From Pelagibius marinus (GTDB lineage Bacteria > Pseudomonadota > Alphaproteobacteria > Kiloniellales > Kiloniellaceae), in assembly GCF_014925385.1 (NCBI RefSeq), contig NZ_JACSDK010000015.1, positions 124,001-188,000 on the forward strand: DNA of 64,000 nt, written 5' to 3'. Made by a program: the position numbers and the translations under genes. Position 1 is the stretch's first letter, and each line of letters opens with the position of its first letter. Below, in pieces: positions 51,330 through 63,629 of this stretch. The notes under the pieces are model-generated. The model saw only the letters and a program-made list of their open reading frames with translations, did no database searches and was not told the DNA's origin.

Positions 51330-52685
51330 CTAGGAGGTGGCCTCGCCGTCGATCAGGTGCAGAAAGGACCCGAAAACGCTGCCCTGGCGCTGTCCGACCC
51401 GGGCGTCACCGCCGCCCTCCGCCGCCTGCGCCTCGAAAAGCGCCTTTTCCGGCGGTCCTTCCTCGCCCAGCACCCGGGCGTAGTGGAACTCGTGGGCGCG
51501 GAAAGCCGCGCCGCCGGCGCCCAGAGGTCCGTTCGCCAACAAACAAACCCGGCGGTAGCCGAGATGGCGTGCGGGTTCCCGGAAGGAGCTCTCCAGCGGC
51601 AGCAGCCCGGCCATGGCGTGACGCCGCCCTTCAGCGTCCTCCAGGCCCTGGCCGAGCACCATGTAGCCGCCGCACTCCCCGTAGACCGCGGCATCGCGCC
51701 CCGCCGCGGCGCGCAGGCCGGCCAGAAAGCGGCCGTTGCCCGCCAAGCGTGCGGCATGCAGTTCCGGGTAGCCGCCGGGCAGGTAGACGGCGTCGGCCGC
51801 AGGATCGGGGGCCTCGTCGGCCAGCGGCGAGAAGCAGGAAACCTCGGCCCCCGCCCGGCGCCAGGCATCGAGCAGCAGCGGATAGGCGAAGGCGAAGGCG
51901 AGGTCCTGCGCCACGGCGATGCGCTGGCCCAAGGGGGCGAGGGGGGGAACCAGGGAAGCGGAATCAGCGGCCTCGGCGCCGGGGATCCTCGCCGGGCGCG
52001 CCGCCCGGCAGAGCGCTGCCACGTCGACCTGCTCCGCGACCGCCGCCGCCGCGGCTTCCAGGAAATCCTCCAGATCGCCGTCCTCTCCCGCCTGTACCAG
52101 GCCCAGGTGGCGTGACGGCCGCGCCAGCGCCGCGTCGCGGGCAAACGCTCCGAAAACAATCTGCCCTGCCGCCTCGCAGGCGGTCCGCAGCAGGGCCTCA
52201 TGGCGCGGGCTGGCGACATTGTTGAGGATCACCCCGGCCAGGGGCACGGCGGCATGGAAGCCGGCGAAGCCCGCCGCCAGCGCGGCGACCGAGGCGCCCA
52301 TGCCCTTGCAGTCGATCACCAGCACCACCGGCCAGCCGGTCAGCGCCGCCAGCTGCGCGGTGGAACCGCCCGCCAGGCCCCGTGCGTCGGTGACCGGCGC
52401 GCCGTCGAAGAGGCCCATGACCCCTTCCCCCAGCACCAGTTCCGCCGCTTCGCCGGCCCGCGCGACCGCCGCGGCCAGGGTTTCCGGGCGCATGGCCCAG
52501 GGGTCGAGGTTGAAGCAGGGCCGCCCGCTGGCGGCCTGGTGGAAGGCGGGGTCGATGTAGTCCGGGCCGGTCTTCACCGAGGCGACGGCCCGGCCCTGGT
52601 TGCGCAGGCAGCGCAGCAGCGCCAGGGTCAGCGTCGTCTTGCCGCTGCCCGAAGCCGGGGCCGCGACCAGCAGACCGGGTGTCAT
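51330..52685 (-). CDS. Cobyrinate a,c-diamide synthase (CbiA/CobB)
   Basis: Amidotransferase of 451 residues in cobalamin synthesis; it adds amides to the a and c side chains of (hydrogeno)byrinate using ATP and glutamine. The N-terminal P-loop is VAAPASGSGKTTLTLALLRC and the family motif VKTGPDYIDPAFH follows. The C-terminal class-I glutaminase domain has LPGGYPELHA and the active-site Cys in YGECGGYMVLGQ. The ATG at 52685 overlaps the cobA stop as ATGA. Symbol cbiA or cobB depends on the pathway branch; I left it blank. It lies downstream of cobA. Confidence 0.94.
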   Translation of the reverse strand: MTPGLLVAAPASGSGKTTLTLALLRCLRNQGRAVASVKTGPDYIDPAFHQAASGRPCFNLDPWAMRPETLAAAVARAGEAAELVLGEGVMGLFDGAPVTDARGLAGGSTAQLAALTGWPVVLVIDCKGMGASVAALAAGFAGFHAAVPLAGVILNNVASPRHEALLRTACEAAGQIVFGAFARDAALARPSRHLGLVQAGEDGDLEDFLEAAAAAVAEQVDVAALCRAARPARIPGAEAADSASLVPPLAPLGQRIAVAQDLAFAFAYPLLLDAWRRAGAEVSCFSPLADEAPDPAADAVYLPGGYPELHAARLAGNGRFLAGLRAAAGRDAAVYGECGGYMVLGQGLEDAEGRRHAMAGLLPLESSFREPARHLGYRRVCLLANGPLGAGGAAFRAHEFHYARVLGEEGPPEKALFEAQAAEGGGDARVGQRQGSVFGSFLHLIDGEATS

Positions 52686-53521
52686 CCTGTCTCCTGGCGC
52701 CGGCTCAGGCCCAGGGGATTGGGGTCGAGCGCACGGCCCTTCGCCGCGCCCTGCCAGTCGAGGCCGGCGCGCAGCCGCACCACGTCGCCCACCACCACAA
52801 TGCAAGGCGGCTCGATGCCCGCCGCGGCGATGTCCTCGGCACAGGCGCCGAGGCTGGTCTCCAGGATCGCCTGCTCCGGCAGCGTCGCCTGACTGACCAC
52901 GGCCACCGGCTCCCCGGGCGCTCGGCCGTGCTCCATGAGCGCCCCGGCGATGGCGGCGATGTGCTTCAAGGCCATGTAGAGGACGATGACCGGGGAACCC
53001 TTGGCCAGCCCCGCCCAGTCGATGCCGTCAGGCACCGAGCCGCCGACGCCGTGGCCGGTGACGAAAGTGACGGCCGAATTGGTGTCGCGATGGGTCAGCG
53101 GAATACCGGCGTAGGCCAGGCCGCCCAGGCCCGCGGAGATGCCGGGAATGATGCGGAAGGGCACGCCCGCGGCGACCAGGGCCAGGGCCTCCTCCCCGCC
53201 GCGCCCGAAAACGAAGGGATCGCCGCCTTTCAGGCGCAGCACCCGTTTGCCGTCCTGGGCCAGGCGCACCAGCCGCTGAGAGATGTCGGCCTGCACCGGC
53301 GAAGGCTTGCCGCCGCGCTTGCCGGCGTAGATCTTCTCGCAGTCGGGACGCGCCATATCGAGGATGGCCGGCCCCACCAGGGCGTCGTAAACCAGGGCAT
53401 CGGCCTGTTTCAGGCCGTTGACGGCATGCAGGGTCAGCAGGCCCGGGTCGCCCGGACCGGCGCCGACCAGCCATACGCTTCCGGCTTCGAAGACCGGCAG
53501 GGAAAGATCGTCTGTTACCAT
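52682..53521 (-). CDS. cobA: Uroporphyrinogen-III C-methyltransferase
   Basis: SAM-dependent enzyme of 279 residues that makes precorrin-2, the branch point to cobalamin and siroheme. Marks: VWLVGAGPGDPGLLTLHAVN at the N-terminus, LVGPAILDMARPDCEKIYAG, and VLRLKGGDPFVFGRGGEEAL. It lacks a fused CysG oxidase domain, so the downstream step is by another gene. It starts MVTDDLSLPVFEAGSVWLVG, divergent from cbiD with only 70 bases between. The stop overlaps cbiA. Confidence 0.95.
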   Translation of the reverse strand: MVTDDLSLPVFEAGSVWLVGAGPGDPGLLTLHAVNGLKQADALVYDALVGPAILDMARPDCEKIYAGKRGGKPSPVQADISQRLVRLAQDGKRVLRLKGGDPFVFGRGGEEALALVAAGVPFRIIPGISAGLGGLAYAGIPLTHRDTNSAVTFVTGHGVGGSVPDGIDWAGLAKGSPVIVLYMALKHIAAIAGALMEHGRAPGEPVAVVSQATLPEQAILETSLGACAEDIAAAGIEPPCIVVVGDVVRLRAGLDWQGAAKGRALDPNPLGLSRRQETG

Positions 53522-53591
53522 GGAAACTACCCTAGACGCCGGGGCCCGGCTGTCCTAGTCAGTGAAAAGCCTCTACTTGTAAAATAGCGAC

Positions 53592-54701
53592 ATGACACGC
53601 AAACCGGAAGGCGCGTTACGGCGCGGGTGGACCACGGGAGCCTGCGCCACGGCGGCCACCAAGGCCGCCTACACCGCGCTGCTGACCGGACACTTTCCCG
53701 ATCCGGTGACCATCACCCTGCCCAAGGGCGAGCAGCCGGCCTTCGCCCTGGCCCGCGAGACCCTGGCGGAGGGGCAGGCCAGCGCCGCCATCGTCAAGGA
53801 CGCCGGCGACGACCCCGACGTGACTCACCTGGCCCTGGTGCAGGCCACCCTGCGGCCGGGCCCGCAAGGCAGCGGCGTCACCTTCACGGCCGGCCCCGGC
53901 GTCGGCACCGTCACCAAGCCGGGCCTGCCGCTGGCGGTGGGCGAGCCGGCCATCAACCCGGTGCCGCGCCGCATGATGCAGGCGGTGGTGGCCGAGGTTG
54001 CCATCGATCACGGCGGCAGCGGCGACGTCGAGATCGAGATATCCGTCGACGGCGGCGAGGACCTGGCCAAGAAGACCTGGAATCCGCGCCTGGGGATCCT
54101 GGGCGGCCTCTCGATCCTGGGCACCACCGGGGTGGTGGTGCCCTTCTCCTGCTCCGCCTGGATTCACTCCATTCACCGCGGCATCGATGTGGCGCGGGCG
54201 ACCGGCATTACCCATGCCGCCGGCTGCACGGGCTCCACCTCCGAAGCGGCGGTGCAGCAGCTCTACGGCCTGCCCGAGGCCGCCCTGCTGGACATGGGCG
54301 ACTTTGCCGGCGGCCTGCTGAAGTACCTGCGGCTGCATCCGCTGCCGCGCCTGACACTGGCAGGCGGATTCGGCAAGCTGTGCAAACTGGCCGCCGGCCA
54401 CCTGGATCTGCATTCGGGGCGCAGCCAGGTCGACTTCGACCTGCTGGCGGCCCTGCTGGGGGAATTGGGCGCGGCGCCGGAGCTGGCCGCCCAGGCCCGC
54501 GCCGCCAACACCGCCAAGCAGGTGCTCGACCTGGCCACGGCCGCCGGCTTGCCGCTGGCCGACGCCGTGGCCGCGCGGGCCCGCGAGACGGCGCTGGGCG
54601 TGCTGTCCAGGCGCAACGCCAACAGCGAGACGGCGGTGGAGGTGCTGGTCTTCGATCGGGCTGGAAATCTCGCCGGCAAGGCGGCAGGCTGGCCCCAATG
54701 A
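53592..54701 (+). CDS. cbiD: Cobalt-precorrin-5B (C1)-methyltransferase
   Basis: Methyltransferase of 369 residues of the CbiD family, which methylates C-1 of the corrin ring during contraction. Marks: RRGWTTGACATAATKAAYTA at the N-terminus, TFTAGPGVGTVTKPGLPLAV followed by GEPAINPVPRRMM, and GGLSILGTTGVVVPFSCSAW in the middle. The TTG ACA-type motif is the family hallmark. Divergent from cobA; the shared promoter space is short. The stop overlaps cobK as ATGA. CbiD fits the early-cobalt route, though CbiD also occurs in alphaproteobacteria with otherwise aerobic-type genes. Confidence 0.95.
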   Translation: MTRKPEGALRRGWTTGACATAATKAAYTALLTGHFPDPVTITLPKGEQPAFALARETLAEGQASAAIVKDAGDDPDVTHLALVQATLRPGPQGSGVTFTAGPGVGTVTKPGLPLAVGEPAINPVPRRMMQAVVAEVAIDHGGSGDVEIEISVDGGEDLAKKTWNPRLGILGGLSILGTTGVVVPFSCSAWIHSIHRGIDVARATGITHAAGCTGSTSEAAVQQLYGLPEAALLDMGDFAGGLLKYLRLHPLPRLTLAGGFGKLCKLAAGHLDLHSGRSQVDFDLLAALLGELGAAPELAAQARAANTAKQVLDLATAAGLPLADAVAARARETALGVLSRRNANSETAVEVLVFDRAGNLAGKAAGWPQ

Positions 54702-55462
54702 GTGAAGCGACAATCACCAAGCCACGGCGCATCCTGCTGCTCGGCGGCACCGGCGACTCCCGCGCCCTGGCTGAGCGGCTGGCCGGCCGCGACGACGTGG
54801 AGGTGATCTCCTCCCTCGCCGGGCGCACCGAGAGCCCGCTGCCCCTGCCCGGCGCCCTGCGCATCGGCGGCTTCGGCGGCGTCGAGGCCCTGGCCGATTT
54901 CCTGACGCGTGAGGGCATCGACCTGCTGGTCGACGCCACCCACCCCTATGCCGCGCGCATCACCGACAACGCCGCCGCCGCCTGCCAGCGCGCCGGCACG
55001 CCGCGCCTGCTGGTCGAGCGCCCGCCCTGGGAGAAGCGGCCCGGCGATAACTGGATCTCGGTGCCCGACACCGAGACCGCGGCCAAGGCTCTGCCGGGAC
55101 TGGCCAAGCGCGTCTTTCTCGCCGTCGGCCGCGGCGAGCTGGATGCCTTCGCGGGCTTGGCCGACATCTGGTTCCTGGTGCGCACGGTCGATCCGCCCGG
55201 CGACAAGCTGCCGCTGGAAAACTGCGAGGTGGTGCTGGGCCGCGGCCCCTTTGAGGCCAACGGCGAGCGCGCGCTCTTCCTGCTGCACGGCATCCAGGCC
55301 CTGGTGACCAAGAACTCCGGCGGCGAGGCGACCTACGCCAAGATCGCCGTGGCCCGCGAACTGGGCCTGCCGGTGGTGATGATCGAGCGCCCGGCGCATG
55401 CGGACGGCGAGACCGCCCACTCGGTCGAGGAAGCGCTCACCTGGATCGAGGCGCAGCTCTAA
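54698..55462 (+). CDS. cobK: Cobalt-precorrin-6A reductase (CobK/CbiJ)
   Basis: NADPH-dependent reductase of 254 residues. The N-terminus ITKPRRILLLGGTGDSRALA has the Rossmann Gly-rich loop, and VDATHPYAARITDNAAAACQ is the conserved family motif. RGPFEANGERALFLLHGIQA and KNSGGEATYAKIAVARELGL are standard C-terminal elements. The ATG at 54698 overlaps the cbiD stop. It follows the methyltransferase step that makes its substrate. A long frame in the same phase extends upstream through cbiD, but it is out of register with cbiD and is not real. Confidence 0.95.
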   Translation: MSEATITKPRRILLLGGTGDSRALAERLAGRDDVEVISSLAGRTESPLPLPGALRIGGFGGVEALADFLTREGIDLLVDATHPYAARITDNAAAACQRAGTPRLLVERPPWEKRPGDNWISVPDTETAAKALPGLAKRVFLAVGRGELDAFAGLADIWFLVRTVDPPGDKLPLENCEVVLGRGPFEANGERALFLLHGIQALVTKNSGGEATYAKIAVARELGLPVVMIERPAHADGETAHSVEEALTWIEAQL

Positions 55463-55618: not shown

Positions 55619-57475
55619 ATGGAACGACGTTTGGCCGCGATTCTGGCCGCAGACGCCGCCGGCTACAGCCAGTTGATGGCCCGGGACGAGGAGGCCGCGC
55701 TGGCGGCGCTCTCCGAACGGCGGAGCATCATCGACGCGCTCATCGCCGCGCACGGCGGCGCGATCTTCGGATCGGCGGGCGACAGCGTCATCGCGGAGTT
55801 CCCCAGTTCCGTCGAAGCCGCCCGCTGCGCGGTGGAGATCCAGGAGCGTCTCAAGGCACTCAACGACGGCCTGCCGGAAGGCCAGCGGATGCTGTTCCGC
55901 ATCGGCGTCAGCTTCGGCGACATCATGGAGGAAGACGGTGACTTCTTCGGCGACGGCGTGAACCTGGCCGCGCGGCTGGAAAGCCTGGCGCCGCCCGGCG
56001 GCGTCTGCCTCTCGGCCCCGGTCGCCGAGCAGCTCTCCGGCCCGCTGGCCACGGCCTTCGCCAAGGCCGGACGACATCGCCTCAAGAACCTGCCCAAGCC
56101 CGTCGAGGTCTGGTGCTGGCCGGCGCAGCGCGCCGGCGCGCTGCGCCGCAAGGCGGCCACGGCGAAGCAGGGGCAGCTGCTCGCCGCCGCGCTGGTCGCC
56201 GCAGCGGCCCTTGCGGTCGTCGTGCTGTACCTGGAGGAGCCCGCGGACCGCGGCCTGCCCACCGGGCCGAAGATCGCGGTGCTGCCGTTCAGCAACATCG
56301 GCGCCGAAACGGAAGACGCCTACTTCAGCGCCGGACTGACCAACGACATCAACACCCTGCTGTCGAAGTTCTCCAACCTCTTCGTCATCGCCCCCCATTC
56401 GGTGAAGGGCTTCAGCGGGCAGATGGACTGCGCGCAGGTGCGCCGCGAAGTGGGCGCCGACTACATCCTCGGCGGCACCGTGCGCCGCTCCCAGGACCAG
56501 CTGCGCGTCACCACGTCCTTCACCGATGCCGAGACCTGCCGCCAGCTCGACGCCCCCGGGCCCTTCGACCGCGACCTCAGCGCGCAGAACGTTCTCGACG
56601 TGCAGTTGGAGATCGCCAAGAAGGTCGTCGCGGAGATCGGCTCGGCCGATGCGCCCCTTTTCAACGCCCGCATCCAGAACGAGGTCCGGCGCAAGGGGCC
56701 GGAAAGCCTGGAGGCCTACGAATGCGTGCTGCTGTCCTACTGGTTCTATGAGACCTTCGAGGCGGAGCGCCATCGCCGGGCGCGCGCCTGCCTGGAGCGC
56801 GCCGTCAAGATCGAGCCCGACTATTCGCTGGCCTGGTCGCGCCTGGCCTTCAGCTACATCGAATCGAAGAAGTACGCCATCGACACGCCGCCCGATTGGG
56901 CCGAGCTCAGCCGTTCCGCCGCCGAGCAGGCGCTCGAAATCGATCCCGACAATCCCGACGCCTACTACGCGCTCGCCATCCTCAGCCAGGTGACCCGCGA
57001 GGATCGCACCGTATTCCGCAACTTCGCCGAAAAGGCCATCGCGCTGAACCCGAACGACGCCTTCGTCCTGGCCGATCTCGGTCTCTGGATGGGCTACTCG
57101 GGGGCCTGGGAGAAGGGCAAGGAGTGGGTGACGCGCGCCAAGCTGATCAATCCCAAGCATCAGAGCTGGGTGGACTACATCTGGCATCTTCACGCCTACC
57201 TGCAGGGCGACTACGCGGAAGCGGTCGCCGTCGCCCTCAAGATGAACCTCCCGGACAACTACATGGTCCAAGCGAGCCTCACCGCCGCGTTTGCCATGAA
57301 CGGCGAAGAAGAGAAGGCCGGGGAAGCCCTGGCGCACCTCCTTGAGATCCGCCCCGACTACCCCGAGGACCCGCGCGCGCCCTTCCGCACCCGTGGCATG
57401 CCCGAAGAGCTTATCGAAGGTCTGATGGAGGGCCTGCGCAAGGCCGGCCTGGACGTTCCGCCGAAGACGTCCTAG
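55619..57475 (+). CDS. Class III adenylate cyclase with TolB-like and TPR domains
   Basis: Protein of 618 residues. The N-terminal ~170 residues are a class III nucleotide cyclase with both metal Asp positions (LAADAAGYSQLMARDE, SAGDSVIAEF) and SFGDIMEEDGDFFGDGVNLA. A helix follows near 185-203 (QLLAAALVAAAALAVVVLYL), so the cyclase faces the cytoplasm. The outer part has a TolB/FlgO-like domain (PKIAVLPFSNIGAETEDAYF) and then several TPRs (ALEIDPDNPDAYYALAILSQ and others). This order is common in rhizobia and rhodospirilla. It would convert an envelope signal into cAMP. GGGAGGG precedes the ATG. Confidence 0.92.
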   Translation: MERRLAAILAADAAGYSQLMARDEEAALAALSERRSIIDALIAAHGGAIFGSAGDSVIAEFPSSVEAARCAVEIQERLKALNDGLPEGQRMLFRIGVSFGDIMEEDGDFFGDGVNLAARLESLAPPGGVCLSAPVAEQLSGPLATAFAKAGRHRLKNLPKPVEVWCWPAQRAGALRRKAATAKQGQLLAAALVAAAALAVVVLYLEEPADRGLPTGPKIAVLPFSNIGAETEDAYFSAGLTNDINTLLSKFSNLFVIAPHSVKGFSGQMDCAQVRREVGADYILGGTVRRSQDQLRVTTSFTDAETCRQLDAPGPFDRDLSAQNVLDVQLEIAKKVVAEIGSADAPLFNARIQNEVRRKGPESLEAYECVLLSYWFYETFEAERHRRARACLERAVKIEPDYSLAWSRLAFSYIESKKYAIDTPPDWAELSRSAAEQALEIDPDNPDAYYALAILSQVTREDRTVFRNFAEKAIALNPNDAFVLADLGLWMGYSGAWEKGKEWVTRAKLINPKHQSWVDYIWHLHAYLQGDYAEAVAVALKMNLPDNYMVQASLTAAFAMNGEEEKAGEALAHLLEIRPDYPEDPRAPFRTRGMPEELIEGLMEGLRKAGLDVPPKTS

Positions 57476-57484
57476 GCCGCCGCC

Positions 57485-59467
57485 TCAGCGCTTTTCACCC
57501 CAGCTCTGCCGCCCGCGTTCGACGATCGAGGTCACCAGCTCAGCGGGCACCGCCTGCGGCGAGCGCGGCTCCAGGGTATCGAAATGAAAGAGGTAGAGTC
57601 GGGAGGCGAACTCCTCGACCGGCAGGGAGGATTCGCCGTAGCGCTCGCCGCGTCCGTGGGTCGAAACCCGCACGCCCTGCCCCCAGTCCTGGCCGCTGTC
57701 GTTGTTGGGGTTGAAGAAGAAGACACGCATCCCGCCGTCCTGGTCCAGGGCCACCCGCGTGATGGCGATGGCGTGCCAGCCGACGAAGCGGCCCTGGCTG
57801 TCGGTGACGGCGATGCCCGCAGGCTGCGGATGGATCAGCGGACGGTTGCCGTTGTAGAGCGGATGATAGACCGCCAGAAACTCGCGCACGAAGTCCGGGT
57901 AGTCCGACAGCTTGCCGCTGGCGACGTCGACGGCGATGCGGCAGCCGCGGCCAACCCACCAGCCGTGGAACTCCGGATTGATCCAGATATGCGGATCCTG
58001 CCCACGGTCGGCGCAGCGGCGTCCCATCTCCATGTAGATGCGGTCGAGGTGCGGCACCAGCACCAGTGAGACCGGATCGACATCCAGCGGCGGCAGCCGC
58101 GCGGTATCGGCGGCGATCGCCTTCGACGACAGGGCCTGGCCTTCGAAATGCATGACGACCTCTTCATCGCGCGCCGCCCAGACCAGCATCTGCATGAGGT
58201 AATCCGGGTCGTTGTAGGCCCACATGGAAAGGGCACGCGCCGTCTGGCAGGTCGGGTTATTGCCCTGGCCGATGCCGAAGGGCTGCCCCAGGACGCAAAG
58301 CAGCCCGGCGAGCAGGAAGACCCGCGGCGGATGCGCCGTGCCGTGGACCGAGGTCAGGACCGACTCGTTGCCGGTGGACAGCGGCAGGGCGATCTGTCCC
58401 CAGAGGGCGGGCGCGATCGGCGGGCTGTAGAGGATCCCGCGCTCCAGCAGCAGGGCCAGCCCGTAGACCGCCTGGCTGGTCTCCGGATGAACCGCTTCCC
58501 GGATGAGGCTACGCACCAGACCCTGGTAGCAGAGCAGGGCGTCCTTTCCGGTGCTGCTGAGCCCGAAGGCCTGGGGCAGCAGCTCCTCGTTGCGTTCCAC
58601 GATATGGCGCAGGAAGACGGGGTGGTAGGGCGACACCAGCCCGGTGTCGTACATGGCCCGGGCGAAACCCCCGGCCTCCTGGGCCAGGGCGTTGGCGTCC
58701 ATGCTGGCCAGACGCTCGGCATAGACGCCGAGGCCGGGATCCTCGCGGCAGCCCAGGGTGGGGCCGTAGAGTGCGCTGATCAGACGGTCAGCCCCACGCC
58801 CGGCGGCGCCCAGGTCCACCTCGGGATTGAACATGCAGGCGGCGATCTGGCCGATCATCGCCTTGACGCCATCGACCTGGATGGGCCGCTGGGCGAGAAT
58901 CCGCCAGATCTCCTCGATCAGCCGGTCCAGGATATTCTCGTAGCCGATGCGCTCGGCGAGATAGACATAGAGGTTGCGTACCACGGCCTCCGGCATCGAC
59001 TGGCGCACCCGCTGCGCCTCTGTCGCCGCCCCGAACAGAACGTTCAGGTTCAGCGCCAGGACCTGCGACAGGAAGTGCTGCGCCTGCTCCGCGGTCAGCT
59101 CGGTCGACAGCAGGTCGCCGCCGGCCACGGCCAGAAAGCGGATCTCGCTCAGGTACTCGAGCGCCGCCGTCTGCTTGTCGCCGTACCACAGGGTGTTGGC
59201 CGCCAGAATGGGCTGCAGGGTTTCGGGATGCGCCCAGTCGCTGCCGGCGAAGATCCCGGCCGCCTCCAGCCGGCCGATGCGCTGGTAGAGCGCCTCCACG
59301 CCGCCCGGCAAGGCCGCCAGGCGGCGGGCCACGTCCAGAACCGCCCCCTGGTAGCTGGCCTTGGCGAAAGGGCGGGCGGACTCCAGGCGGCCCAGCGCCT
59401 GGTCCAGAAGCTCTTCCAAATGCCGACCCGACGTCGCCTCGGGCAGCGGCTCCACTTCCACGGTCAT
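57485..59467 (-). CDS. Uncharacterised protein with papain-like cysteine catalytic pattern
   Basis: A 660-residue soluble protein with no signal peptide or helix. I do not recognise the family. The first 370 residues are helical. From about 398 it has GIGQGNNPTCQTARALSMWA, with Gln401 six residues before Cys407. Later come GWHAIAI with His565 and VFFFNPNNDSGQDWGQG with Asn586-589. This Gln-x5-Cys ... His ... Asn order matches papain-type peptidases, in which the His is in a GxHAV-like strand and Asn follows. GGGAG precedes the ATG. It lies 36 bases after an ATP-grasp ligase gene in the same direction. A peptidase, transglutaminase or amidotransferase role is inferred, not shown. Confidence 0.85.
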   Translation of the reverse strand: MTVEVEPLPEATSGRHLEELLDQALGRLESARPFAKASYQGAVLDVARRLAALPGGVEALYQRIGRLEAAGIFAGSDWAHPETLQPILAANTLWYGDKQTAALEYLSEIRFLAVAGGDLLSTELTAEQAQHFLSQVLALNLNVLFGAATEAQRVRQSMPEAVVRNLYVYLAERIGYENILDRLIEEIWRILAQRPIQVDGVKAMIGQIAACMFNPEVDLGAAGRGADRLISALYGPTLGCREDPGLGVYAERLASMDANALAQEAGGFARAMYDTGLVSPYHPVFLRHIVERNEELLPQAFGLSSTGKDALLCYQGLVRSLIREAVHPETSQAVYGLALLLERGILYSPPIAPALWGQIALPLSTGNESVLTSVHGTAHPPRVFLLAGLLCVLGQPFGIGQGNNPTCQTARALSMWAYNDPDYLMQMLVWAARDEEVVMHFEGQALSSKAIAADTARLPPLDVDPVSLVLVPHLDRIYMEMGRRCADRGQDPHIWINPEFHGWWVGRGCRIAVDVASGKLSDYPDFVREFLAVYHPLYNGNRPLIHPQPAGIAVTDSQGRFVGWHAIAITRVALDQDGGMRVFFFNPNNDSGQDWGQGVRVSTHGRGERYGESSLPVEEFASRLYLFHFDTLEPRSPQAVPAELVTSIVERGRQSWGEKR

Positions 59468-59503
59468 AGAATCTCCCGCGCGCCGTCGGACTTAGGCTCC
59501 GGA

Positions 59504-60769
59504 TCAGACATAGAAATCCACCTCCTCCTGGTGCTTCAGCAACTCGCGCATCCGGTGCGGATCATCGCCGAAGAAGTATACCAGACCCCAGTGCGTGCCG
59601 AAGGCCGTGCGCTTGGGCACCTTGGCCTCGACCGGCGACATGAGCTCGTGAAACTCGAAATAGGGGTCGTTCTCGGTTTCCTCCGGAATCTCCAGGTGGC
59701 TGATCACGCGGCGGCGCGGATAGACGCCGAAGCAGCCGGCGTGTCCCTTGGCGTCGACCACCTCGCGCGGGAAGAAGGCTTCTATTTCTTCCTCCGTGGT
59801 CTTGGGGTCGAACATCAGGACCAGCCCCTGATAGGCGTTGAAACCGTAGGCGCGCTCCATCAGCTCGAAGGCGTTGAAGCCCGGCGGACGGTAAGCGACC
59901 TCGCCGAAGTACATCTTGCCGTCGTTGGTGACGAAGTATTCGGGATGGATGAAGCCGAAGTCGATGTCGAAGGTCTCGATCAGCTTCTCGATTTCCTCGG
60001 TCACGCGGGAGCGCCACTTCTCCAGCTCCGGCGAAGCCGGGATGAACACCGAATACCCCAGGGTGACGTACTCGGAGATATTCAGGAAACGGACCTTGCG
60101 GTCGTGGATGAAAGCCTCGCAGGCGAACTCGAAGCCGTCGAGGTGGCTTTCCATGAGACAGGGGAACTCGTCGTCGGGGATGTTCTCCACGTCGTCGGGC
60201 GTTTGGATCATGCGGTGGCCCAGACAGCCGGCCTTGTCGAAGGCCTTCAGGTGGATCGGATCGTTGGGATCGCCGTCGAGCTTCAGCAGCGCCTGATTGA
60301 CGCGCTTGAGAAAGCGGATGACGTCCCCCTTGTCGCGGCCCTCCTCGAAGATGCCGACGCGGATGCCGCCCAGCTGCGCGCGGCGCTTCATCAGCGACTT
60401 GTCGCGGAACAGCATCGACTGGCCGAGCAGGCGCGGGTTCTCCAGCAGCACGGCGTTGATCGCTCCGGCCCATTCGACGACTTCCTCGAACAGCGGGATG
60501 GCGACGTCCACGCCCTCTTTCTTCAGGCGCATGGCGAGCTCGTGCGAACGTTCGTTGAGGCGCTCGAAATTCCAGGGGATGAAAGGGATATCGTGCTCGC
60601 GCGCGTAGTCCTCGGCCCAGTCCGGCGCGACGACGATGTAGCGCCGGTCGAAGCGGTCGATGGCGTCAATCGCCCGCAGGCTCCAGCCGAGAATCGCGAC
60701 GTAGCCCTTGTCCGGGTTGTAGTCTGTTTGAGTCCGCTCTTCTTCTTCAACGACCTCCAAAGTAGTCAT
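59504..60769 (-). CDS. ATP-grasp domain ligase of unknown substrate
   Basis: Cytosolic protein of 421 residues of the ATP-grasp superfamily, which joins a carboxylate to an amine through an acyl-phosphate. ATP-grasp marks: Lys124 in SMLFRDKSLMK, Lys175 and Lys179 near IHLKAFDKAGC, Glu207 in PCLMESHLDGFEF, and FIHPEYF plus GEVAYRPPGFNAFELM (Glu290, Arg294) for Mg-ATP. A pre-ATP-grasp Rossmann part (KGYVAILGWSLRAIDAIDRF) precedes it. It is the first gene of a two-gene operon with the papain-like protein. The ATG at 60769 has AGGAAG upstream; earlier in-frame codons are not used. Substrate unknown. Confidence 0.9.
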   Translation of the reverse strand: MTTLEVVEEEERTQTDYNPDKGYVAILGWSLRAIDAIDRFDRRYIVVAPDWAEDYAREHDIPFIPWNFERLNERSHELAMRLKKEGVDVAIPLFEEVVEWAGAINAVLLENPRLLGQSMLFRDKSLMKRRAQLGGIRVGIFEEGRDKGDVIRFLKRVNQALLKLDGDPNDPIHLKAFDKAGCLGHRMIQTPDDVENIPDDEFPCLMESHLDGFEFACEAFIHDRKVRFLNISEYVTLGYSVFIPASPELEKWRSRVTEEIEKLIETFDIDFGFIHPEYFVTNDGKMYFGEVAYRPPGFNAFELMERAYGFNAYQGLVLMFDPKTTEEEIEAFFPREVVDAKGHAGCFGVYPRRRVISHLEIPEETENDPYFEFHELMSPVEAKVPKRTAFGTHWGLVYFFGDDPHRMRELLKHQEEVDFYV

Positions 60770-61013
60770 GCTTGCTTCCTTCCTGTGATCGGATGGATGG
60801 CGCGCGTCAGCAGGCCTGTCGGGATGCCGGTAGGAACCGGCGTAGCAGGCAGCGCTCCCGTCGGACGCGATGGTCAGAAAGGTGTCTCTGACAGGGACAA
60901 GAAGACTGCTGAGCGGGCGCAGCAACGTTGTGCCCGGCTGGCAATGAGAGGTACGGGAGACTTAGGCGAACGCCAGTGTGATTGTCTGCCACTGCCTTTC
61001 AGCATCGGCGGGA

Positions 61014-61274: not shown

Positions 61275-62759
61275 ATGCCCTCGCTCAGCGCCTACCGCGG
61301 CCAATGGCTCGGCAATATCCGCGGCGACGTCCTCTCCGGGCTGGTCGTCGCCCTGGCCCTCATTCCCGAGGCCATTGCCTTTTCCATCATCGCCGGGGTC
61401 GACCCCAAGGTGGGGCTCTACGCCTCCTTCTCCATCGCCGTGCTGGCGGCCATCACAGGCGGGCGGCCGGGCATGATCTCCGCGGCCACGGCGGCCACCG
61501 CCGTGGTCATGGTCACCCTGGTGAAGGACCACGGCCTGGAATACCTGCTGGCCGCCACGGTGCTGACCGGCATCCTGCAGATCGCCGCCGGCTTCCTGAG
61601 GCTCGGCTACCTCATGCGCTTCGTCTCGCGCTCGGTGATGACCGGCTTCGTGAACGCGCTCGCCATCCTGATCTTCATGGCCCAGCTGCCGGAGCTGATC
61701 GGCGTGCCCTGGCTGACCTACGTGATGGTCGCCGCCGGGCTCGCCATCATCTATCTCTTTCCCTTCGTCACCAAGTCGATCCCCTCGCCGCTGATCTGCA
61801 TCCTGGCGCTGACCGCCGTCACCCTCGCCCTGGGCCTGGACCTGCGCACGGTCGGCGACATGGGCGAGCTGCCGTCCACCTTCCCGGTCTTCGCGCTGCC
61901 CCAGGTGCCCTTCACCTTCGAGACCCTGATGATCATCCTGCCCTATTCGGTCGCCGTGGCGGCGGTGGGTCTGCTGGAATCGCTGATGACGGCCACCATC
62001 GTCGACGACCTGACCGACACGCCCAGCAACAAGAACCAGGAGTGCATCGGCCAGGGCATCGCCAACGGCCTGACCGGCTTCATCGGCGGCATGGCGGGCT
62101 GCGCCATGATCGGCCAGTCGATGATCAACGTGAAGTCCGGTGGCCGCGGTCGCCTCTCCACCTTCTGCGCCGGCATCTTCCTGCTGTTCCTCATCGTCGT
62201 GCTGGGCGACTGGGTCAGCCGCATTCCCATGGCCGCCCTGGTCGCCATCATGATCATGGTCTCCATCGGCACCTTCAGCTGGTCGTCGATCAAGAACCTG
62301 AAGAGCCATCCGCGCAGCTCCTCGCTCGTCATGCTGGCGACGGTGGTCTGCGTCGTCCTGACCCACAACCTGGCCATCGGCGTGCTGGCCGGGGTGCTGC
62401 TCTCCGGCATCTTCTTCTCCTGGAAGATCGCCCAGATCTTCCGCGTCACCTCGACCCTTTCCGAAGACGGCCGGGCGCGGACCTATCGGGTCGAGGGCCA
62501 GGTCTTCTTCGCCTCGGCCGAGGACTTCACCGCCGCTTTCGACTTCAAGGAAGCCCTGGAGAAGGTCACCATCGACGTCAGCCGCGCGCACATCTGGGAT
62601 ATTTCCAGCGTCGCCGCGCTGGATATGATCGTCCTGAAGTTCCGCCGCGAAGGCGCCGAGGTCGAGATCGTCGGCCTCAACCGGGCCAGCGAGACCATCG
62701 TCGACCGCCTGGCGATCCACGACAAACCCGGGGCGCTGGAACGCCTCATGGGGCATTAG
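61275..62759 (+). CDS. SulP-family anion transporter with STAS domain
   Basis: Inner-membrane transporter of 494 residues with about 12-14 helices. SulP marks: [20 protein letters not shown] and [18 protein letters not shown] near the N-terminus, [20 protein letters not shown] with [12 protein letters not shown] in the middle. A STAS domain fills the last ~100 residues ([20 protein letters not shown]). Substrates in the family are sulfate, bicarbonate and others; this one is not assigned. UspA lies 15 bases downstream. The start at 61275 has no clear ribosome-binding site, so the N-terminus is uncertain. Confidence 0.93.
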
Positions 62760-62774
62760 GGGGAAGCAAGACCG

Positions 62775-63629
62775 ATGGCAAAACTCATCGCCCTGGTGGA
62801 CGGTTCCATCTACTCGGAAAGCGTCTGCGACCACGCGGCCTGGATTGCCGGGCGCGGCGGCGCGGAGATCGAGCTGCTGCATGTGCTGGGCCGGCGGGAA
62901 ACCTCAAGCGAGCCCGCCAACCTCAGCGGCAACATCACGCTCGGTGCCCGCACGGCCCTGCTGGAGGAACTGAGCGCACTGGACGAGCAGCGCGCCAAGC
63001 TGGCGCAAAAGCGAGGCCGCGCGATCCTGGAAGATGCCGCGGCGCGTTTGGCCGCCGGCGGCGCCGGCCGCGTGACTTCGAAGCTGCGGATCGGCGATTT
63101 CGTGGAAACCGTCGCAGAGCTGGAGCCCGGGGCCGAGATGATCGTCGTCGGCAAGCGCGGCGAAGCCGCCGACTTCGCCAAGCTGCACCTCGGCTCCAAC
63201 CTGGAACGAGTGGTGCGGGCCAGCCACAAGCCGGTCTTCGTCGCGTCGCGCGCCTTCAAGCCCATCAAGCGCTTCCTCATCGCCTACGACGGCGGCACCA
63301 GCGCCATGAAGGCGATCGACTACATCGCGCGCAGCGACCTCTTCGCCGGCCTGGAGTGCCGCCTGATCTCCGTGGGCGGCGACAGTCCGGAGAATCGCAA
63401 GCGCCTGGACGACGCCAAGGCCCTGCTGGAAGGCGGCGGCTACAGGGTCGAAACCGGCATCCTGGCCGGTCAGCCGGATCGCGCCATCGCCGAGGCCGTC
63501 GAGGCGGAGGGCATCGACCTCCTGGTCATGGGGGCCTACGGCCACTCGCGCATCCGCACCCTCATCATCGGCTCGACGACGACGGAGATGCTCCGTTCCT
63601 GCAAGGTGCCGGTGGTGCTGTTCCGCTGA
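62775..63629 (+). CDS. Tandem-domain universal stress protein
   Basis: Usp of 284 residues with two Usp units: residues 1-155 (LIALVDGSIYSESVCDHAAW ... MIVVGKRGEAADFAKLHLGS) and 158-284 (RFLIAYDGGTSAMKAIDYIA ... LLVMGAYGHSRIRTLIIGST). The second unit keeps the GAYGHSR-type nucleotide-binding loop; the first is diverged. It is 15 bases after sulP with GGGGGAAG before the ATG, so both are co-transcribed. It may regulate the transporter in the same way as the UspA in the TAXI locus. Confidence 0.94.
   Translation: MAKLIALVDGSIYSESVCDHAAWIAGRGGAEIELLHVLGRRETSSEPANLSGNITLGARTALLEELSALDEQRAKLAQKRGRAILEDAAARLAAGGAGRVTSKLRIGDFVETVAELEPGAEMIVVGKRGEAADFAKLHLGSNLERVVRASHKPVFVASRAFKPIKRFLIAYDGGTSAMKAIDYIARSDLFAGLECRLISVGGDSPENRKRLDDAKALLEGGGYRVETGILAGQPDRAIAEAVEAEGIDLLVMGAYGHSRIRTLIIGSTTTEMLRSCKVPVVLFR

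Follow-up and report, generated by a model that had tools for sequence, protein, structure and literature searches.

An ATP-grasp ligase gene and a gene for a candidate papain-like protein form a conserved pair in Pelagibius marinus and in Gammaproteobacteria

Layout of the gene pair and its products

The window analysed here, a stretch of 64,000 nucleotides from Pelagibius marinus (contig NZ_JACSDK010000015.1), carries on its reverse strand two adjacent genes, the first encoding an ATP-grasp ligase of 421 residues (59504–60769) and the second a candidate papain-like protein of 660 residues (57485–59467). Both open reading frames, their strand and the 36 bases that separate the ligase stop codon from the ATG of the papain-like gene were confirmed from the sequence as an initial annotation of this DNA had given them. 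Shine-Dalgarno-like purine runs precede both start codons, the likely ribosome-binding sites being AGGAAGGAAG for the ligase gene (60775–60784, reverse strand) and GGGAG, inside the 36-base gap, for the papain-like gene (59473–59477, reverse strand). A longer version of the ligase beginning at a TTG codon is unlikely to be the proper choice, since all full-length homologues but one, whose alignment starts at residue 31, begin to align within residues 1–21 of the ATG form.

The ligase gave a match to the Pfam family ATP-grasp_4 that lies under the cut-off (E 0.0004; 20.5 bits against a cut-off of 27), and weak sequence matches in the PDB to L-amino acid ligases and to entry 4dim. When its structural model, with a predicted local distance difference test score (pLDDT) of 60.6, was searched with Foldseek, the first matches were the L-amino acid ligases 3vot and 4wd3 (E about 2e-7), heading 79 PDB matches at E<=0.001 whose top ranks comprise L-amino acid ligases, purine enzymes and biotin carboxylases. 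Because its pLDDT is only 60.6, this model is too poor for the substrate to be read from it. Residues Lys124, Lys175, Glu207, Glu277, Glu290 and Arg294 are invariant in 35 aligned sequences and presumably play their usual ATP-grasp roles; the protein thus combines the fold of the superfamily with its catalytic residues K175, E207, E277, E290 and R294. Taken together, the below-cut-off family match and the fold matches bear out the assignment made in the initial annotation, and the 421-residue protein appears to be an ATP-grasp enzyme closest to the L-amino acid ligases, an assignment that is right but weak by family models. These ligases, which act on free amino acids, are found both among the best PDB sequence matches and as the best fold matches (BL00235, 3vot; RizA, 4wd3). 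The identity in the fold alignments is 14%, only the ligase of the window has a co-inherited partner protein, and it carries an invariant E-V-A-Y-R, unlike the E-x-N-x-R usual in ATP-grasp enzymes.

The 660-residue protein, which the initial annotation could not assign, proved equally unassignable here. Specifically, it matched no Pfam or NCBIfam model at E up to 1, and against PDB sequences it gave one match in a single-sequence search (E 0.35) and one in a profile search (E 0.41), neither of them related to peptidases, while a profile of its C-terminal domain gave zero matches. Pfam searches with 40 family members and 29 domains returned scattered sub-threshold matches only, among them Propeptide_C1 (1 of 29 domains, E 0.2). 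A defence system was considered and rejected, as PADLOC yielded a single chance-level match (MTase_II, E 0.005). The protein appears from sequence comparison to be a member of a large family without a name: in a scan of 84,980 species genomes, one genome per species, relatives are encoded in at least 578 of at least 594 matching stretches. The best 80 of these stretches, kept for the family work, are all from Gammaproteobacteria, chiefly Halomonas and its kin, with Alcanivorax, Marinobacter, Methylophaga, Marinimicrobium, Ectothiorhodospiraceae and others also represented; the genome of the window shares with them the phylum and differs in class.

In an alignment of 112 rows (110 distinct sequences, identity down to 42%), the residues Gln401, Gly402, Pro405, Cys407, Gln408, His565, Ala566, Asn586, Pro587 and Asn588 are invariant, and Cys407 is the sole invariant cysteine. 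The initial annotation had likened the protein to papain through Gln401, Cys407, Trp564-His565, Asn586, Asn588 and Asn589, all of which were found at the positions claimed, and had regarded a lack of conservation of Cys407 and His565 among homologues as fatal to the idea; both are invariant in 112 of 112 rows. On the reverse strand, the codons lie at 58265–58267 for Gln401, the candidate oxyanion-hole residue, at 58247–58249 for Cys407, the candidate nucleophile, at 57773–57775 for His565, the candidate general base, and at 57710–57712 for Asn586, the candidate third residue, each conserved in 112 of 112 rows. An AlphaFold model built with 40 sequences (pLDDT 76.5; predicted template modelling score, pTM, 0.62) predicts a helical N-terminal half (residues about 1–395) followed by a mixed, putative papain-like C-terminal domain (about 396–660), in which Cys407 immediately precedes and starts helix 408–419, His565 lies inside strand 561–574 and Asn586 follows strand 580–585.

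In the papain-like superfamily, the cysteine always caps the core helix, the histidine belongs to the second strand and most families have a third polar residue, according to the parts consulted of a survey (PMC10318531) in which no mention of the 660-residue family was found. The model agrees with this arrangement, having the cysteine at the start of the core helix and the histidine and then the polar residue on the following strands, with low local confidence at residues 398–406. What the protein has in common with Peptidase_C1 and its relatives is the signature QG-x4-C, HA, N, in that order, and, in the model, a cysteine at a helix start, a histidine in a strand and an asparagine past the next strand; what sets it apart is that profile similarity to them is undetectable and that it has an extra helical N-terminal half of about 395 residues. 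The loose order Q-x5-C...H...N occurs in 988 of 5000 shuffles of the 660-residue protein, so that it carries no weight as evidence and by itself is no proof of anything beyond chance. The tight signature QG-x4-C...HA...N arises in 27 of 5000 shuffles; among natural sequences, 3 of 846 background proteins carry it, as do 6 of the 8 proteins called at six control loci matching Peptidase_C1, one per locus; its presence in 106 of 106 family members is expected, because it was derived from their invariant residues. The invariance of the residues is the stronger evidence for the motif. Of the papain-type claim, then, the residues, their order and their secondary-structure places stand, and the papain fold itself found no significant fold or profile match; we regard this fold as likely, not proved.

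Co-occurrence and proximity of the two genes

The two genes are found in the same genomes. In a gammaproteobacterial sample, searches with the two profiles (one at E 0.001, the other at E 1e-40) matched both in an identical set of 12 of 369 genomes, and in a phylum-wide sample, searched with a single papain-like sequence and the ligase profile at E 1e-40, both genes were present in an identical 11 of 398; the two samples overlap, and genome G106 matched in both. Among relatives of the genome carrying the window, the papain-like protein was found in that genome, G024 and G025 (3 of 58); of 21 genomes searched for the ligase, these three gave matches, all near E 1e-240, and the others gave none at 0.01.

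They are also close together. Classified by orientation, 109 distinct papain-like proteins comprise 86 encoded after the ligase, 7 divergent from it, 3 before it, 2 convergent with it and 11 without a ligase within 6 kb in the examined stretch. One of these 11, L112, is shown to have a ligase by the longer stretch L120, which brings to 99 of 109 the distinct loci where no more than 6 kb separates the two genes; all four relative orientations of the pair are seen. The intergenic gap is at most 401 bases in 88 of 89 pairs; at L233 an extra open reading frame may intervene between the two genes. The initial annotation had suggested following the adjacency of the genes in homologues, and on these counts they do stay together. 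At the unpaired loci L010, L058, L073 and L080 the ligase is elsewhere in the genome (4 of 4; L010 is also at a contig edge), at L115 it is about 55 kb distant, and the copies at L116, L118, L123, L230 and L232 are additional to a paired one in the same genome.

In addition, the pairwise distances of the two proteins correlate over 40 taxa (Mantel r 0.78, reached by 0 of 2000 permutations), the mean pairwise identity over these taxa being 83% for the ligase and 64% for its partner. Quick trees of the two proteins separate the same divergent loci, many branches being weakly supported: the papain-like tree places the window with G025 (support 89) and G024 just outside, and the ligase tree places it with G024 and G025 (support 98). 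The highest identity of the ligase of the window, 84%, is to a Modicisalibacter ligase.

Searches for the papain-like gene in closer relatives of the window's genome were negative for all 7 further genomes of the genus and all 15 further ones of the family, and positive for 2 of 35 further ones of the order; several of these genomes are incomplete. Given this patchy distribution, the gene may have been acquired by horizontal transfer in this lineage. A phage or plasmid origin was considered and rejected: no phage record carries the family, none of 40 pattern matches in viral contigs was confirmed, and a plasmid collection gave one record, a 1.8-Mb Halomonas replicon.

Genes surrounding the pair

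Clustering of neighbours brought out an occasional third gene of the histone deacetylase (HDAC) family, matching Hist_deacetyl. At 8 of 109 loci, belonging to five groups, it is no more than 2.5 kb from the papain-like gene, and this number is a lower bound because some loci have short flanks. These are four Alcanivorax/Alloalcanivorax loci together with L018, L107, L120 and L121, the latter four with all three genes on the same strand. HDAC6 and an HDAC-like amidohydrolase were the closest PDB matches of one of these proteins. Seven of the eight share 62–97% identity with one another; the L120 protein is 45–50% identical to the other seven, an unlinked family member reaching 32–43%, and more distant HDAC-family genes at this last level, found elsewhere in Halomonas and Methylonatrum loci, were left out of the count. 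At L120 (426–4934) the HDAC-family gene is located between the papain-like gene and the ligase in a single three-gene run, its ATG overlapping the papain-like stop codon by 4 bases, and L234 has a related gene at a distance of three genes from a further ligase. Among the titles and abstract openings listed by literature searches, none describes an HDAC-family enzyme alongside an ATP-grasp/papain-like pair.

A constant third gene was also sought: among 103 neighbour proteins scanned, no Pfam family occurred in more than two. TlyA-like and dnaX/recR-like neighbours, named by eye, are repeated chiefly within Halomonadaceae and seem to reflect simple synteny. Individual loci have other neighbours. 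At L232, the extra papain-like copy begins 3 bases (from a TTG) or 24 bases (from an ATG) past a PotI-like permease gene of a putrescine-type transporter, whose PotF-, PotG- and PotI-like proteins score below the equivalog cut-offs and whose potA subfamily model scores above its own. A papain-like copy at L065 is beside an aminotransferase (subfamily model above cut-off) and a semialdehyde-type dehydrogenase (below cut-offs), and an L-piperidine-6-carboxylate dehydrogenase (above cut-off) adjoins a separate ligase of G725 at L237. These neighbours weakly point toward amines; as single cases they prove nothing.

A ligase-free third papain-like copy (L123, 4265–12868) lies between Memo/radical-SAM genes and a pair of GCS2-like (E 4e-6) and AstE/AspA-like (E 2e-5, just below cut-off) genes; here another amide ligase possibly substitutes for the usual partner. 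As a general context this was rejected, since it is not repeated at the third copies in G126 and G194 (L230 and L232). Similar proteins of 636 residues, with a C-terminal part resembling ketoacyl-ACP synthase III, are encoded near two different papain-like copies (L123, 4265–6172; L233, 5640–7547).

In the window itself, a gene for a guanylate-cyclase domain with TPR repeats (55619–57475) is convergent with the papain-like gene, with 9 bases between them, and a SulP sulfate permease with a STAS domain followed by a universal stress protein (61275–63629) is divergent from the pair. Downstream of the pair (51330–55462) are genes that by eye resemble the cobalamin pathway (cobyrinate synthase-, uroporphyrinogen methyltransferase-, CbiD- and CobK-like), with no evident connection to it.

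A possible amide-bond pathway and its alternatives

Starting from genes whose conservation, co-occurrence and proximity, with an HDAC-family neighbour in some lineages, are directly observed, we propose that both genes serve a single amide-bond pathway: the ATP-grasp enzyme makes an amide, and the papain-type site cuts or transfers the same or a related one. We give this proposal about an even chance of being right. The ligase would activate a carboxylate with ATP, as an acyl-phosphate, and couple it to an amine. The 660-residue protein would hydrolyse or transfer the amide via an acyl-enzyme at a papain-type site of Cys407, His565 and Asn586, with Gln401 in the oxyanion hole, while its helical N-terminal half presumably binds the substrate or a partner. 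In several lineages, the adjacent HDAC-family zinc deacylase would provide a second amide-removing step. The catalytic roles, the papain fold and a substrate common to both proteins are what we infer here, and least certain is the substrate class, which may be an amine, polyamine or amino-acid conjugate rather than a protein. Glutathionylspermidine synthetase/amidase likewise combines an ATP-grasp ligase with a cysteine amidase and can both form and cleave an amide; it differs from the pair, which consists of two separate genes, and neither protein matched the GSP_synth or CHAP models of Pfam. According to parts of one study, an ATP-grasp ligase related to glutathionylspermidine synthetase is found in polyamine operons (PMC11237479).

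The pair could instead write and erase a mark on a protein, an amino acid being attached to a terminus or side chain by the ATP-grasp enzyme and taken off again by the papain-like peptidase, as RimK and RimB do on ribosomal protein S6, an explanation that we consider rather improbable. Tubulin tyrosine ligase and vasohibin are a write/erase pair of this kind. The higher conservation of the ligase would be expected of an enzyme that reads a conserved macromolecule, and the helical half of its partner drew armadillo/HEAT-like matches, non-significant ones; no nearby target is evident, however, the closest ligases are those of free amino acids, and some neighbours suggest small-molecule metabolism. 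Loci combining an ATP-grasp protein with a protease, RimK/RimB and RloABC, exist in Pseudomonas according to parts of one report (PMC12239564); the proteases of those loci are aspartic, unlike the papain-like partner, and neither protein of the pair matched a RimK-, RimB- or Rlo-type Pfam family. A graspetide-like natural-product cluster, in which the ATP-grasp enzyme would modify a precursor peptide and a peptidase cut its leader, is disfavoured and seems to us very improbable. ATP-grasp ligases define graspetides (PMC8939145). Proteases accompany the ligases of such clusters. However, when 1645 small open reading frames from 93 loci, taken from 266 flanking or intergenic stretches, were clustered, no cluster held more than two family labels, each such pair of labels probably being one family, so that no small open reading frame conserved across families lies beside the ligase. 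Of the peptide idea in the initial annotation, the conserved gene pair thus stands and the small-peptide precursor gene, which was looked for, was not found.

It is unlikely, in our judgement, that the 660-residue protein is not papain-like at all and that Cys407 and His565 are kept for a metal site, for structure or for another cysteine-enzyme fold. The order, spacing and secondary-structure context of the residues agree with those of papain, and few background proteins carry the tight signature; arguing for such an alternative are the absence of both a fold and a profile match, the poorly modelled active-site loop and the many further polar residues that are also invariant. The missing fold and profile matches and the poorly modelled loop also weigh against the amide-bond pathway. 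The histidines His493, His535 and His628 are invariant in the 112 rows as well, and pLDDT falls below 50 at residues 398–406 and 555–559. Foldseek searches of the whole model against the PDB and a viral library gave nothing at E<=0.001: non-significant helical-repeat proteins dominate the PDB list, and a peptidoglycan-binding-like protein ranks first in the viral list (E 0.18), where papain- or cathepsin-named entries stand, equally non-significant, at ranks 2, 13 and 46 (E 0.2, 0.87 and 2.0). Alignment of the family with hhalign against Peptidase_C1 (4 sequences), C39_2 (24) and Transglut_core (20) gave probabilities below 1%, and the transglutaminase core (PF01841) found neither a Pfam nor a profile match. 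Ten of the 109 papain-like copies have no ATP-grasp gene within 6 kb, and therefore the protein may act alone or with a different ligase. Finally, the HDAC-family gene is beside only 8 of 109 (raw count) and is absent beside the pair of the window and the Alcanivorax loci L024, L030 and L075, the transporter and amine-metabolism neighbours are single cases, and other neighbour families do not recur across lineages.

A bolder form of the amide-bond pathway, which we put forward as speculative and on balance improbable, would be a so far unrecognised bacterial amide-modification cycle, in which an ATP-grasp enzyme writes the modification and a new member of the papain superfamily, holding the substrate with its helical half, erases it, joined in some lineages by a deacylase of the HDAC family. 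The cycle would act on polyamines or on a conserved protein in the way that tubulin ligase, vasohibin and HDAC6 act on tubulin. The top-ranked titles and abstract openings from searches of the open literature gave no description of the ATP-grasp/papain-like pair, and an earlier mention, for instance in the amidoligase survey (Iyer 2009), may exist.

In conclusion, a protein family with a conserved catalytic-type site and a co-inherited ligase occurs in hundreds of genomes, yet the searched copies of Pfam and NCBIfam contain no curated model for it. Since the pairing has been kept through rearrangement into all four orientations, a functional link between the two genes is directly testable. Should the amide-bond pathway be confirmed, the papain-like superfamily would gain a branch, and marine and halophilic bacteria, several of them in culture, a new amide metabolite or modification.

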